A stretch of 64,000 bases of DNA from Acidobacteriota bacterium (lineage in GTDB: Bacteria > Acidobacteriota > Thermoanaerobaculia > Gp7-AA8): contig QHVT01000015.1 in the NCBI GenBank assembly GCA_003223645.1, positions 62,001 to 126,000 of the forward strand, written 5' to 3'. Below, piece by piece: positions 23,375-53,011 of this stretch. A program made the position numbers and the translations under genes. Positions within the stretch are counted from its first letter, which is position 1. Each line of letters starts with the position of its first letter. The notes below the pieces were generated by a model, which was not told where the DNA came from, did no database searches, and worked only from the letters and a program-made list of their open reading frames with translations.

Positions 23375-23504
23375 GTACTCCATTCGCTAAGTTCGAGCAC
23401 ACGTCATCCTGAGCGTAGCGAAGGATCTCAAGTTACGTAGATTGAGATCTTTCGCCGTCTACGCGGCTCAAGATGACGTGTGACTGAACTTGGCGAATGA
23501 AGTA

Positions 23505-37748: not shown

Positions 37749-37770
37749 GTGTTCCTCCTCCGTCGTGCCT

Positions 37771-37841
37771 GTGGAGCGGCGGCCGCCCTCGGCCGCCGAA
37801 TTTGCGCGACAAACCGGCGGCCGAAGCGGCCGCCGCTCCAC
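37771..37841. repeat. Palindromic repeat family A, copy 2
   Basis: Arms GTGGAGCGGCGGCCGCCCTC/...GCGGCCGCCGCTCCAC of about 26 bp with a few mismatches. The last base touches the stop codon of the DUF2064 gene. Confidence 0.9.
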
Positions 37842-41048: not shown

Positions 41049-41319
41049 GCGGAGGCACTGCGCGATGCGCATTTGTCGAGCAAAATGACAGCCCCTCACC
41101 CGGCGCTTCGCGCCACCCTCTCCCCGCATGCGGGGCGAGGGGCAACATGTACGAGCATCGAGATTTGTTGCCCTTCTCCCCGCATGCGGGGAGAAGGTGC
41201 CCGAAGGGCGGATGAGGGGCGGTCATTAGAAGCGCAGCGAAGGATCTCAGGCTACGTATTTTGAGATCCTTCGCTGCGCTCAGGATGACGGTGCGAATTT
41301 AGCGAATGAAGTGCTAAGG
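41001..41319. repeat. Nested palindrome: family G inside family D
   Basis: The outer D arms are at about 41001-41062 (AGTACTTCGGTCGCTAAGTT...CATCCTGAGC) and 41238-41319 (AGGATCTCAGGC...GAATGAAGTGCT). Between them lie two G-type parts, CCCCTCACCCGGCGCTTCGC and TTCTCCCCGCATGCGGGGAG, ending GGCGGATGAGGGGC. No gene is present in about 320 bp. Confidence 0.85.
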
Positions 41320-44701: not shown

Positions 44702-44799
44702 TGTGGTGACCGCTGCCCCCAGCGGTCACAGCGCCGCCTAACGGCGGCGCCGGCGGCGCTCTTGCGCCGCCGCGACCGCTGAGGGCAGCGGTCGCCACA
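44702..44799. repeat. Palindromic repeat family E, copy 1
   Basis: TGTGGTGACCGCTGCCCCCA pairs with TGAGGGCAGCGGTCGCCACA, with an inner GGCGGCGC hairpin. A second copy lies at 50514-50610, where it is nested in family D. Confidence 0.92.
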
Positions 44800-48116: not shown

Positions 48117-50332
48117 GATCGCTTCGTGAAATCAGATGGCAGATGGCAGATGGCAGATGGCAGGGCGGTGGGGCCGTCCGCCCATCCGCCGTACGCCATC
48201 TGTTGCTCGCCGCATCGCTGCTGCTTCTCGCCGCCGGCGCGTTCGGACAGGCAACCAGCGTCAACGACATCAAGACTCCGCCGCTGCGCTCGTTCTCGAT
48301 GCCGCAGCCGAAGAGGGTCCAGCTCTCCAACGGCATGGTCATCTTCCTCATGGAAGATCACGACCTGCCGCTCGTCCGCGGCACCGCCCTCATTCGCGGC
48401 GGCTCGCGCGACGTCCCCGCCAACAAAGCGGGCCTCATGGGCATCTACTCGCAGTCGTGGCGCACCGGCGGCACGACGACGAAGACCGGCGACGACCTCG
48501 ATCAGTTCCTCGAGTCGCGCGCGGCGCGCGTCGAGACCAGCGGCAGCACCGCCTCGACCAGCGTGTCGATGGACGTGCTGAAAGAGGACTTCGACACCGT
48601 CTTCCCGATCTGGGTCGACGTGCTGCGCAATCCCGCGTTCCGGCAGGACAAGATCGATCTCGCGAAGACGCAGGCCAACACCGCGATCTCGCGCCGCAAC
48701 GACGAGCCGGGCGGCATCATCGGACGCGAAGCGGCGAAGCTCGGCTACGGCGCCGATTCTCCGTACGCGCGCCAGTCCGAGTACGCGACCATCGCGTCGA
48801 TCACCCGCGACGACCTCGTCGCGTTCCACAACGCCTACGTGCATCCGAACAACATCATCGTGTCGTTCATCGGCGACTTCGACTCGGCGAAAATCGAGAA
48901 GAAGCTCCGCGACACCTTCGGCTCGTGGGCGAAAGGCCCGCAGGCCCCGAAGGCGACGCAGGACATCACTCCCGCGAAGCCCGGCACCTACTTCATCGCC
49001 AAAGACGACGTGACCCAGGCGAACATCTCGTTCGTGAGTCCCGGCGTCACGCGCGACAACCCCGACTACTACGCGCTGCAGGTGTTGAACGAAGTCTTCA
49101 GCAACGGCTTCTCCGGACGCCTGATGCAGGAGCTGCGCTCCAGGCGCGGCCTCACCTACGGCGTGAGCGGCGGCGTCGGCGCGAACTGGGATTACCCCGG
49201 CCTCTTCCGCGCCGGCATGGCCACGAAGAGCAGCACCACGCTCGAGTCGGTCGACGCGTTGCGCGGCGAGATCGCGAAGCTCACCACCGCGCCGGTGACG
49301 CCGGAAGAGTTGTCGCTGGCGAAGGAGTCGATCCTCAACGCGTTCGTCTTCACGCGCGACACCCGCGGCAAGGCGCTCGATCAGCAGGTGCTGCTCGAGT
49401 TCTACGGCTTCCCGAAAGACTACTACGAGAAATATCCGTCGCAGATCGAGAAGGTCACCGCGGCGGACGTCGAGCGCGTCGGGAAGAAGTACGTGCACCC
49501 CGATCAGCTCGCGCTCCTCGTCGTCGGCAACCAGAAGGATTTCGAAAAACCGCTCTCGACCCTCGGCAACGTGACGACGATCGACATCACGATCCCCGAG
49601 CCGGGCGCTGCACCTGCGAAGCCGGGCGCCGGCGGCGGCGCAGCCATGGCTGCACCCGCGGCAGGAAATGCCGAAGGCCTCGCGCTCGCGAACAAAGTCG
49701 CCGACTTCGTCGGCGGCAAGGCGAAGGTCGATGCGGTTCAGGCAGTGAAGCGCAGCGGTTCCATGAAAGCCGTCACGCCGCAGGGCGAGATGGAAATGGA
49801 GATGACGACCGTCGCGCAGTATCCCAACTCCGTCAAGGTCGTGATGAACACGCCGATGGGATCGATCACGCGCGTGATCAGCCCGCAGGCCGCATTCATG
49901 ATCGGACCGATGGGCACGCAGGACATCCCCTCATCGCAGCGCGATCAGGCGTCGAGCGACATGAAGACCGAGCTGCTCACGGTCATCAAGAACATCGGCA
50001 ATCCCAAGTACACCTTCAGCGCCGGCGCGACCGAGAAAGTCGGCACCGTCGACGCGCGCGTCGTCGAAGTCAACGCCGACGGCGCGACCGTCAAGTGGTA
50101 CGTCGACCCCGCCACCGGCAAACTCCTCCGCACCGTCAGCCACGCCGGCGGCCCCATGCCCGGCGACGCCGTGAGCGAGTACACCGAGTGGAAAACCTTC
50201 AACGGCCTCAACCTCCCGAGCGCAACCATCATCACGCGCAACGGCGAGAAAGCCGGCGAAATGCACGTGAGCAACGTCGAATTGAACCCCACGATCGACG
50301 CGAACGAGTTCGCGAAACCGCCCGCGCAGTAA
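48113..50332 (+). CDS. M16 family peptidase-like partner with extended C-terminal domain
   Basis: A 739-residue M16-family protein. In place of HxxEH it has AGLMGIYSQSWRTGG, so the zinc site is absent, and RLMQELRSRRGLTYGVSGGV is the typical substrate-binding segment of the partner subunit. Residues beyond 510 form an extra domain, LANKVADFVGGKAKVDAVQA to VSNVELNPTIDANEFAKPP, known from outer-membrane lipoprotein-like sensors in M16 fusion proteins. The N-terminus MRSLREIRWQMADGRWQGGG is distorted by iterated-word palindrome M; the signal peptide (LLLAASLLLLAAGAFGQ) follows it. The gene starts in ATGA overlap with the catalytic subunit. Confidence 0.88.
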   Translation: MRSLREIRWQMADGRWQGGGAVRPSAVRHLLLAASLLLLAAGAFGQATSVNDIKTPPLRSFSMPQPKRVQLSNGMVIFLMEDHDLPLVRGTALIRGGSRDVPANKAGLMGIYSQSWRTGGTTTKTGDDLDQFLESRAARVETSGSTASTSVSMDVLKEDFDTVFPIWVDVLRNPAFRQDKIDLAKTQANTAISRRNDEPGGIIGREAAKLGYGADSPYARQSEYATIASITRDDLVAFHNAYVHPNNIIVSFIGDFDSAKIEKKLRDTFGSWAKGPQAPKATQDITPAKPGTYFIAKDDVTQANISFVSPGVTRDNPDYYALQVLNEVFSNGFSGRLMQELRSRRGLTYGVSGGVGANWDYPGLFRAGMATKSSTTLESVDALRGEIAKLTTAPVTPEELSLAKESILNAFVFTRDTRGKALDQQVLLEFYGFPKDYYEKYPSQIEKVTAADVERVGKKYVHPDQLALLVVGNQKDFEKPLSTLGNVTTIDITIPEPGAAPAKPGAGGGAAMAAPAAGNAEGLALANKVADFVGGKAKVDAVQAVKRSGSMKAVTPQGEMEMEMTTVAQYPNSVKVVMNTPMGSITRVISPQAAFMIGPMGTQDIPSSQRDQASSDMKTELLTVIKNIGNPKYTFSAGATEKVGTVDARVVEVNADGATVKWYVDPATGKLLRTVSHAGGPMPGDAVSEYTEWKTFNGLNLPSATIITRNGEKAGEMHVSNVELNPTIDANEFAKPPAQ
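48139..48202. repeat. Iterated-word palindrome M in the M16 N-terminal region
   Basis: CAGATGGCAGATGGCAGATGG is repeated four times and faces GCCATCTG at about 48195; GGGCGGTGGGGCCGTCCGCCC forms an inner hairpin. It lies within coding sequence, between the start codon and the signal peptide. Confidence 0.75.
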
Positions 50333-50389: not shown

Positions 50390-50646
50390 GTACTGCATTC
50401 GCTGAACTCGATCACACACCCTTCCGTCATCCTGAGCGCAGCGAAGGATCTCAAAATACGCAGCTCGAGATCCTTCGCTACGCTCAGAGGTTGTGAAAAT
50501 TTTCCACGAGCTTTGTGGCGACCGCTGCCCTCAGCGGTCGCGGCGGCGCTACGCGCCGCTGGCGCCGCCGTGAGGCGGCGCTGTGACCGCTGAGGGCAGC
50601 GGTCACCACATTCTCAGGGATGACGGAACTTCTGTGTCGTCGAACC
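50390..50646. repeat. Palindromic repeat family D, copy 5, interrupted by family E
   Basis: The left D arm (ACTGCATTCGCTGAACTCGA...CATCCTGAGCGCAGCGAAGG) and inner part run to about 50486 (CGCTACGCTCAG). After a 27-bp junk stretch and family E (50514-50610), D resumes with CTCAGGGATGACGGAACTTC and TGTGTCGTCGAAC, exactly matching the complement of the D4 left end. Confidence 0.9.
50514..50610. repeat. Palindromic repeat family E, copy 2
   Basis: TGTGGCGACCGCTGCCCTCA faces TGAGGGCAGCGGTCACCACA, with inner GGCGGCGC hairpins. It interrupts copy 5 of family D. Confidence 0.93.
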
Positions 50647-50653
50647 CGAACCT

Positions 50654-50724
50654 GTGGAGCGGCGGCCGCTCTCGGCCGCCGAATTCTCGCGAGACCCCGG
50701 CGGCCGAAGCGGCCGCCGCTCCAC
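50654..50724. repeat. Palindromic repeat family A, copy 3
   Basis: Arms GTGGAGCGGCGGCCGCTCTC and its complement. It follows the D5/E2 composite directly, so four palindrome families lie in 390 bp (J, D, E, A). Confidence 0.93.
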
Positions 50725-50785: not shown

Positions 50786-53011
50786 ATGATGCAGAAAAAC
50801 TTCCGCCGCGGCGCGATCGCTCTGGTTGCGCTCTTCCTTTCCCTCCCCGCCTTCGCGCAGGCAACCAAGCCGGCCTACCACGTCCAACGGCTGACCGGCG
50901 AGATCCGCGTGGACGGCCGCCTCGACGAGAGCACGTACAGCGCGCCGCCGACGTTCGAGCTCGCGTACGAGACCCGGCCGGCCGAGAACAAGGAAGCGCC
51001 GGTGCGCACCGAGGTGTGGATCACCTACGACGCGGGCAACCTGTATGCGGGCTTTCGTGCGCACGACCCGCATCCCGGCGAGATCCGCGCGCGCTACTCC
51101 GATCGCGACAACGCCTTCGGCGACGACTTCATCGGCATCGTCCTCGATACCTTCAACGACCAGCGCCGCGCGTTCGAGTTCTTCGCCAACCCCCTCGGCG
51201 TGCAGATGGACCTCACCCAGAACGAGATGACCGGCAACGAAGACAGCTCCTGGGACGCGATCTGGGACTCGGCCGGCCGCATCACCGCGGACGGATACGA
51301 AGTCGAGATGCGCATCCCCTTCTCGTCGCTTCGCTTCCCGTCCGGCGGCGGCGCGATGACCTGGGGCATCGACTCCGTGCGCGTCTATCCGCGCGGCCAG
51401 CAGTACCGCCTCGGCCTCAACCCGCAGCAGCGCGGAAACAACTGCTACCTCTGCCAGTCCGCCACCCTCAACGGCATCTCCGGCGTCTCTCCCGCCCGCT
51501 CCATCGAGCTCAATCCCACCGTCACCGCGTCGCAGAGCGGCGAGCGCACCGACTTCCCCAACGGACCGCTGAAGACCGGCGACCCGAATTTCGAAGCCGG
51601 CCTGACCGGACACTGGGGCATTACCCCGAACCTCACCTTCACCGGCACCGTGAACCCCGACTTCTCGCAGGTCGAAGCCGACGCCGCGCAGCTCGCCGTG
51701 AATACCCAGTTCGCGCTCTTCTTCCCAGAAAAAAGGCCCTTCTTCCTCGAAGGCGCCGACCTGTTCGAGACGCGCTTCAACGCCATCTACAGCCGCAACA
51801 TCGCCGACCCCGAGTGGGGCGTGAAGCTCACCGGCAAGGCCGGCAAGAACGCGCTCGGCGCGATCGTCACCCAGGACCGCCGCACGAATTTTCTGATTCC
51901 GTCGAGCGAGGGAAGCCGGCTGGCGACCGTCGACGACAAGAACCTCTCGACCATCCTTCGCTATCGCCGCGACCTCTTCGGCGCGACCACCGGCGGATTC
52001 TTTTTCACCAGCCGCGAAGGCGACGGCTACCACAACCGCATGCTCGGCGGCGACATCCTCTTCCGCTGGCGCGGCACGAAGGCGCTCCGCGTCGAGCTCC
52101 TCGGATCCTCGACCCAGTATCCGGCGTCGATCGTGGCGGACACCGGCCAGAACGCTTCCGAGCTCACCGGCCGCGCGATCCGCACCGTCTTTCAGCACAC
52201 CTCCCGCGACTGGACGTACTACTTCCTCTATCGCGACGTCGGCAAAGACTTCCGCGCCGACCTCGGCTTCGTTCCGCGCGTCGACTTTCGCGAGAAAGGC
52301 AGCCTGCTCGAGCACGCCTGGTACCCCGTGAAAAGCGCCTGGACGCAGTGGCGCCTCGGCGTGGAGGCAACCGACATCGACGACCAGAGCGGCGACCGCC
52401 TCGAGCGCCACGCCGACTTCTACGCCTGGGCGAACGGCCCGCGCCAGTCCTTCGTCCGCGCGGACGTCTACGCGCGCGACCAGCGCTACGCCGGAGAACT
52501 GTTCGACACCGACAGCGTCGTCCTCTACGGCGAATTCGCCGCCCATCCCGACGTCTTCGTCACCGGCCAGCTGACGGCCGGCAACCAGATCGACTTCGCC
52601 AACGCGCGCCAGGGCGAACAACTCCGCTTCGACCCCGGCGTCCGCTGGAACGTCGGCAGCCACCTCCGCCTGAACCTCAACCATTCCTACGAAACGATCG
52701 ACGTCGACGGCGGCCGCCTCTACACCGCCAACCTCACCGAACTGCGCGCGACCTATCAGCTGAACAACCGCACCTTCGTCCGCTGGATCGGCCAATCCCT
52801 CGACGTCGACCGCGACCCCGCCCTCTACACCTTCCCGATCGACGCCCGCAGCCGCGACTTCTTCAACCAGTTCCTCTTCTCCTACAAGATCAACCCCCTG
52901 GCCGTCCTCTTCCTCGGCTACTCCGACACCCGCACCGGCAACGCCCAAATCGACCTCACCCAGCAAAGCCGCACGTTGTTTTTGAAGGTCGGCTACGCCT
53001 TTCAGGTATAG
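50786..53011 (+). CDS. DUF5916 outer-membrane protein with CBM9-like N-terminal domain
   Basis: A 741-residue exported protein. Signal peptide KNFRRGAIALVALFLSLPAF, cleaved after AQA. Residues about 30-220 resemble the carbohydrate-binding-9-like domain (TGEIRVDGRLDESTYSAPPT, AYETRPAENKEAPVRTEVWI, YEVEMRIPFSSLRFP). The rest is a DUF5916 beta-barrel with PDFSQVEADAAQLAVNTQFA, ALFFPEKRPFFLEGADLFET and a final aromatic strand LFLKVGYAFQV. It is probably a surface protein binding sugars or other ligands. Two ATGs lie at 50786 and 50789; the first is kept. Upstream is the palindrome cluster, so its promoter is probably in 50725-50785. Confidence 0.87.
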   Translation: MMQKNFRRGAIALVALFLSLPAFAQATKPAYHVQRLTGEIRVDGRLDESTYSAPPTFELAYETRPAENKEAPVRTEVWITYDAGNLYAGFRAHDPHPGEIRARYSDRDNAFGDDFIGIVLDTFNDQRRAFEFFANPLGVQMDLTQNEMTGNEDSSWDAIWDSAGRITADGYEVEMRIPFSSLRFPSGGGAMTWGIDSVRVYPRGQQYRLGLNPQQRGNNCYLCQSATLNGISGVSPARSIELNPTVTASQSGERTDFPNGPLKTGDPNFEAGLTGHWGITPNLTFTGTVNPDFSQVEADAAQLAVNTQFALFFPEKRPFFLEGADLFETRFNAIYSRNIADPEWGVKLTGKAGKNALGAIVTQDRRTNFLIPSSEGSRLATVDDKNLSTILRYRRDLFGATTGGFFFTSREGDGYHNRMLGGDILFRWRGTKALRVELLGSSTQYPASIVADTGQNASELTGRAIRTVFQHTSRDWTYYFLYRDVGKDFRADLGFVPRVDFREKGSLLEHAWYPVKSAWTQWRLGVEATDIDDQSGDRLERHADFYAWANGPRQSFVRADVYARDQRYAGELFDTDSVVLYGEFAAHPDVFVTGQLTAGNQIDFANARQGEQLRFDPGVRWNVGSHLRLNLNHSYETIDVDGGRLYTANLTELRATYQLNNRTFVRWIGQSLDVDRDPALYTFPIDARSRDFFNQFLFSYKINPLAVLFLGYSDTRTGNAQIDLTQQSRTLFLKVGYAFQV

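Follow-up and report, generated by a model that had tools for sequence, protein, structure and literature searches.

THE NESTED SITE

The site described here occupies positions 50390–50646 of the window, by which we mean the whole 64,000-nucleotide stretch of DNA that was analysed, taken from a host genome of 6.38 Mb in 51 contigs. It is intergenic, lying between an open reading frame of 739 aa that ends at 50332 and another of 741 aa that starts at 50786. A palindrome, D, is interrupted here by an insert containing a second palindrome, E, and a third, palindrome C, starts 22 bases past the nest. The features are as follows (a dot marks those without an assigned strand).

50422–50487, strand. 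: larger portion of D, the interrupted palindrome, a REP doublet with CGTC heads (TTCCGTCATCCTGAGCG...GCTACGCTCAG), ending in CTCAG
50483–50487, strand +: CTCAG, copy 1 of a 5-bp direct repeat (target duplication), read from the sequence and recurring at other copies
50488–50513, strand +: leader AGGTTGTGAAAATTTTCCACGAGCTT, 26 bases, common to 17 E copies, its first 13 bases like an IS1182-type terminal repeat
50514–50610, strand +: E, a REPIN-like doublet TGTGG...CCACA
50514–50541, strand +: first REP-like unit of E, a GTGG head and the palindrome CGACCGCTG-CCCT-CAGCGGTCG (REP definition, PMC2817692)
50582–50610, strand −: second REP-like unit of E, inverted, read from the sequence
50611–50612, strand +: TT separating E from the second CTCAG, found in most composite copies
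50613–50617, strand +: CTCAG, copy 2 of the 5-bp direct repeat, read from the sequence
50618–50628, strand. : remaining end of D, GGATGACGGAA, with an extra G relative to the D consensus, complementary to the 50422–50432 region
50651–50724, strand. : palindrome C (GTGGAGCGGCGG...), a neighbour outside the insert; the same palindrome flanks the genome's RAYT gene
44702–44799, strand −: solo E without leader (L048), in the opposite orientation to the E at 50514–50610
41231–41291, strand. : D without E, from the window sequence

The original prediction, made from the sequence alone, placed an E within an interrupted D, and this nested arrangement is confirmed, with the coordinates of D, of E and of the resumed D all holding. 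The intact solo E that it reported at 44702–44799 is present, in the other orientation, and so are the D copies without E, which in the window lie at 23402 and 33222 as well as 41231 and which also occur elsewhere in the genome and in relatives. It erred over the 27 bases between D and E, described as unrelated: 26 of them (50488–50513) form a leader that recurs beside 16 other E copies. The inserted unit at 50488–50612, of ∼125 bp, consists of leader, E and TT and stands between two direct copies of CTCAG, where an intact D has one. We call this unit the composite, and E copies lacking the leader solo.

THE D PALINDROME

D has the features of the CGTC-tagged class of REPs, namely a CGTC head, a stem starting with AT and an arrangement in head-to-head doublets (CGTCATCCTGAGCG...CGCTCAGGATGACG). 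When the flanks of the insert are joined (50422–50487 and 50619–50628), the rebuilt D matches intact D copies in the genome, the best being an uninterrupted one at C6:49800–49873 (96% over 72 of 73 bases). At least a dozen relatives have D-like sequence too, again without E. The 148 other genomes of the class yielded no full-length E and no composite, with one partial match of 36 bases, and nothing in 84,980 GTDB species genomes, a set that may omit records close to this genome, matched a 26-base E pattern exactly. D is therefore widespread and E and the composite are local, so that the objection that D in other genomes always carries E at this position, which would make the two a single element, does not apply. 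Genomes of the same genus or family are ∼70% or less identical at the flanking genes, too distant to offer an empty orthologous site. A literature search with the D sequence gave no match.

THE E FAMILY

A 27-base pattern for the E end has 204 matches in the genome and its reversed control has 0, from which we arrive at ∼100 E copies. The best 67 of these were aligned, and fractions given for this aligned set are not genome-wide: 17 of the 67 are composites with the leader and about 50 are solo. When folded, E forms a single long hairpin with branches at −59 kcal/mol (shuffle mean −29.7, z −11), a chance origin is excluded, and where copies differ in the middle hairpins the changes appear, as judged by eye, to preserve pairing. 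Placement of E centrally in older palindromes was looked for as inverted flanks at solo E, giving one perfect case (L024) and no excess over shuffles.

In the definition of REPs, a short palindrome follows a GT(A/G)G head (PMC2817692), and the TnpA-REP enzymes cut at a CT beside the REP (PMC8266576). E has two such units in inverted arrangement, with TGTGG and CGACCGCTG-CCCT-CAGCGGTCG at both ends, and is dispersed at high copy number. Moreover, of 50 solo E copies 23 have CT at −3,−2 ahead of one end, against a background of 5.6%, and 5 have it at the other end. Solo copies show no target duplication, the k=5 test being marginal (p 0.05) on a set that included three composite copies.

A single REP-associated tyrosine transposase (RAYT) was identified in the genome, by a match to NF047646 above its cut-off. 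Its gene (C4:53044–53589, or L070:9045–9590) has one copy of palindrome C upstream and three downstream (GTGGAGCGGCG...), a classic REPtron. Palindrome C, which occurs in the window at 37768–37841 besides 50651–50724, shares the GTGG head of E and has a different stem. We say REPIN-like of E because the only RAYT found in the genome is flanked by C and not by E, and since C differs from E in its stem, we infer rather than assert that RAYT moved E.

THE COMPOSITE AND ITS TARGET DUPLICATION

Composite copies come from 40 places that were fetched from the genome on comparison with the whole site and then aligned; many genome matches to the whole site begin within the supposedly unrelated bases. 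The leader AGGYTGTGAAAATTTCCAAGAGCTT lies directly left of 17 of the 67 aligned E copies, 16 of them at other loci, and TT follows E in most. Mean pairwise identity is 95.1% among composite E copies and 88.1% among solo ones. Given this shared placement of the leader and the closer likeness of its E copies, the composite behaves as one family that has spread as a unit. The solo copies L023, L024, L025 and L028 share the inner loop of the composite and may be leaderless derivatives.

With 1–3 bases allowed after E, an exact 5-bp direct repeat, mostly CTCAG, is found just outside the composite in 8 of the 17 copies and is inexact or absent in the other 9; the binomial p-value for these repeats assumes independent copies and is not to be taken literally. 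A target duplication had been proposed as a check at the E junctions; the 5-bp CTCAG repeat does exist, though outside the leader and not at the ends of E. Composites have a D motif next to them in 12 of 17 cases and solo E copies in 8 of 50 (p 6e-5), by a permissive test that 15% of random stretches of the D-rich window pass.

Like its presumed parent IS, the composite thus has a target duplication (CTCAG or GTCAG, 8/17), but an IS-type terminal repeat is present at its left end only, where a MITE of the IS1182 type would have inverted repeats at both. Because the right end, CCACATT, shares nothing but CACA with the IS1182-type repeat TTCACAGCCT, we do not file the composite as an IS1182 MITE and say only that it works like one. 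Past its first 13 bases the leader is unlike the IS ends, and its last bases are CTT ahead of TGTGG. A 52-bp unit in L014, made of the leader and a CCACATT end without E, could be an ancestor of the composite or, equally, a deletion product. The composites L018, L019 and L021 have in common a right flank, TTCTAATGACAGCCCCTCATCCGCCCTTCGGGCACC, which is another dispersed repeat.

THE IS1182-FAMILY ELEMENT AND D-CARRYING MINIATURES

An IS1182-family element of this genome has the ends AGGGTGTGAAGAATT and AGGCTGTGAAGGATT. Its protein was recognized by an N-terminal part of 85 residues that matches NCBIfam NF033551 (9e-17), a partial match below the 270-bit cut-off for the full-length protein because contigs break inside it; this part has no Pfam match. 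The left end, AGGGTGTGAAGAATTCGCG, occurs at nine contig ends, with CTCAG beside it in 8 of 9, while the ninth, at the start of contig C15, continues with the D-like CTCGGAATGAC. Most of these left ends sit immediately within a D-type palindrome; at contigs C48 and C50 the left end comes after the right-hand CTCAG of a composite, and at C5 it is next to a further terminal repeat. The opposite end, AGGCTGTGAAGGATTCGCG, is seen at contig C49, where it borders CTGAG, and at C18, where it borders CCGAG, both times beside D-like sequence.

Small elements with two IS1182-type ends, each enclosing a complete D, stand between direct repeats CTCAG..CTCAG or CTGAG..CTGAG. Since these miniatures are symmetrical, a pentamer belonging to their own ends would appear inverted, so the direct CTCAG and CTGAG are target duplications. 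Such two-ended miniatures were noted at L084, L087, L088, L144, L153 and others, several of them inserted in another D. The IS1182 element, the D-carrying miniatures and the composite share one insertion point in D, its CTCAG/CTGAG, and relative to CTCAG the IS and the leader are oriented alike. In a relative, an IS1182 element has CCGAG on both sides and lies within the loop of a hairpin with the arms CCCCGCG and CGCGGGG. Replacement of the target inverted repeat, as by IS1272, is not what is seen at our site, where D is kept on both sides and CTCAG occurs twice. A terminal repeat adjoining D was found in none of the 148 relatives, a strict pattern of terminal repeat plus D gave no match in the GTDB scan, and this genome alone showed the pairing.

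PROPOSED HISTORY OF THE SITE

We consider it fairly likely that the nest has three layers, with D the oldest at the site, an IS1182-type non-autonomous element bearing E inserted into D, and E itself taken up earlier by that element through RAYT. In this history D, a dispersed doublet of CGTC-head REPs, would have been in place first. E would have entered an IS1182-type miniature at a CT, most likely by way of the single-strand transposase RAYT. The resulting composite would then have spread, presumably moved in trans by the IS1182 transposase, landing mostly in D at CTCAG and duplicating 5 bp. At least two rounds of transposition, involving two unrelated transposases, are thus probably recorded at one intergenic spot, and because the two systems are stacked there the putative order of events can be read from the sequence.

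The best-surviving alternative, though an unlikely one, is recombination in place of transposition, a D already bearing the composite converting other D copies. Many composites do adjoin D, and all those flanked by CTCAG share one orientation relative to it, as conversion would have it; the IS1182 element, however, has this same fixed orientation. Moreover, the D sequences beside composites differ between loci, and two composites have their repeats where there is little or nothing of D to recombine with: L022, with CTCAG on both sides and only a weak D motif nearby, and L035, with GTCAG on both sides and no D motif.

Less probable still is that some other transposase moves the composite, one whose end motif and target happen to coincide with those of the IS1182 element. 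Such an enzyme would suit the composite's right end, which is not an IS1182 terminal repeat, and the leader beyond its first 13 bases, but end motif, CTCAG target, position in D and orientation are all those of the IS1182 element.

The original prediction that something was inserted into an existing D stands, given that D copies free of E occur in the window, elsewhere in the genome and in a dozen or more relatives; its proposal that E alone moved, the 27 bases being filler or already there, is strongly disfavoured and comes last, for although E is solo at about 50 of the 67 aligned places (44702–44799 among them), leader, E and TT recur together at 17 loci, with the same leader at the same distance from E at the 16 others, the 5-bp repeat outside the leader, and solo E without target duplication.

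RELATION TO KNOWN SYSTEMS

The three-layer reading brings together several known kinds of element. E resembles REPINs and other RAYT-associated REP doublets (PMC3116915, PMC2817692, PMC8266576) in its inverted units with a GT(A/G)G head and palindrome, its ∼100 copies, the lack of target duplication, the CT before one end and the presence of a RAYT in the genome; it differs in that this RAYT is flanked by palindrome C, in having an extra pair of inner hairpins, and in that part of the family rides in a miniature of DDE type. The composite is short and repeated, with an IS-type end and target duplication, as MITEs are, yet only one of its ends is a clear terminal repeat, the other being formed by the terminus of E and TT. 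Targeting of REPs at a fixed point is known from insertion sequences such as ISPpu9 and ISRm22 (PMC1525189); here it is an IS1182-type element and its miniatures that do so, some of which carry REPs themselves.

The IS of this genome agrees with the IS1182 family, which includes IS1272 (PMC5678879), in its partial transposase match, its terminal repeats and its palindromic targets. IS1272 replaces its stem-loop target without duplication, whereas here D survives and gains a 5-bp duplication, adding a palindrome-targeting member that duplicates 5 bp to a family known from a target-replacing one.

D is like the CGTC-tagged REPs (PMC3733652) in that it is a CGTC-head doublet, scattered between genes, whose stem starts with AT. 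Those REPs were reported without a linked transposase and their means of spread was left open (PMC3733652), unlike D here, which is both target and cargo of IS1182-type ends; the two-ended elements that carry D are of interest for this reason. The genome gives a concrete candidate for the spread of CGTC REPs, in an IS1182 element with a fixed landing base within them and in miniatures with IS1182 ends that carry REPs. We suggest, as a tentative and still rather doubtful generalization from these sequences, that IS1182-family transposases may mobilise REP-type palindromes in trans, with D doublets and E as cargo and CGTC REPs as the preferred landing site. If this were true, CGTC REPs would gain a means of spread, and repeated self-targeting would lead to nested palindromes.

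VARIANTS AND NEIGHBOURS OF E

A shorter relative of E, of 56 bp (TGTGGCGACCGCTGCCCTCAGCGGTCGCGGTGCCGCTGAGGGCAGCGGCACCCACA) and without the inner hairpins, occurs at L122, L123, L125, L126 and L127. At L026, L036, L111 and L119, short tandem arrays of ∼15–20 bases containing GCGGTCACCACA lie directly right of E, as if the end of E had been reiterated. Sequence like TTTCAAGATTGACGCTCCACTAG is found just right of E in L030, L033, L043, L048, L017, L103 and L128, whose flanks are otherwise unrelated. In L116 and L117 the right half of E is fused directly to palindrome C.
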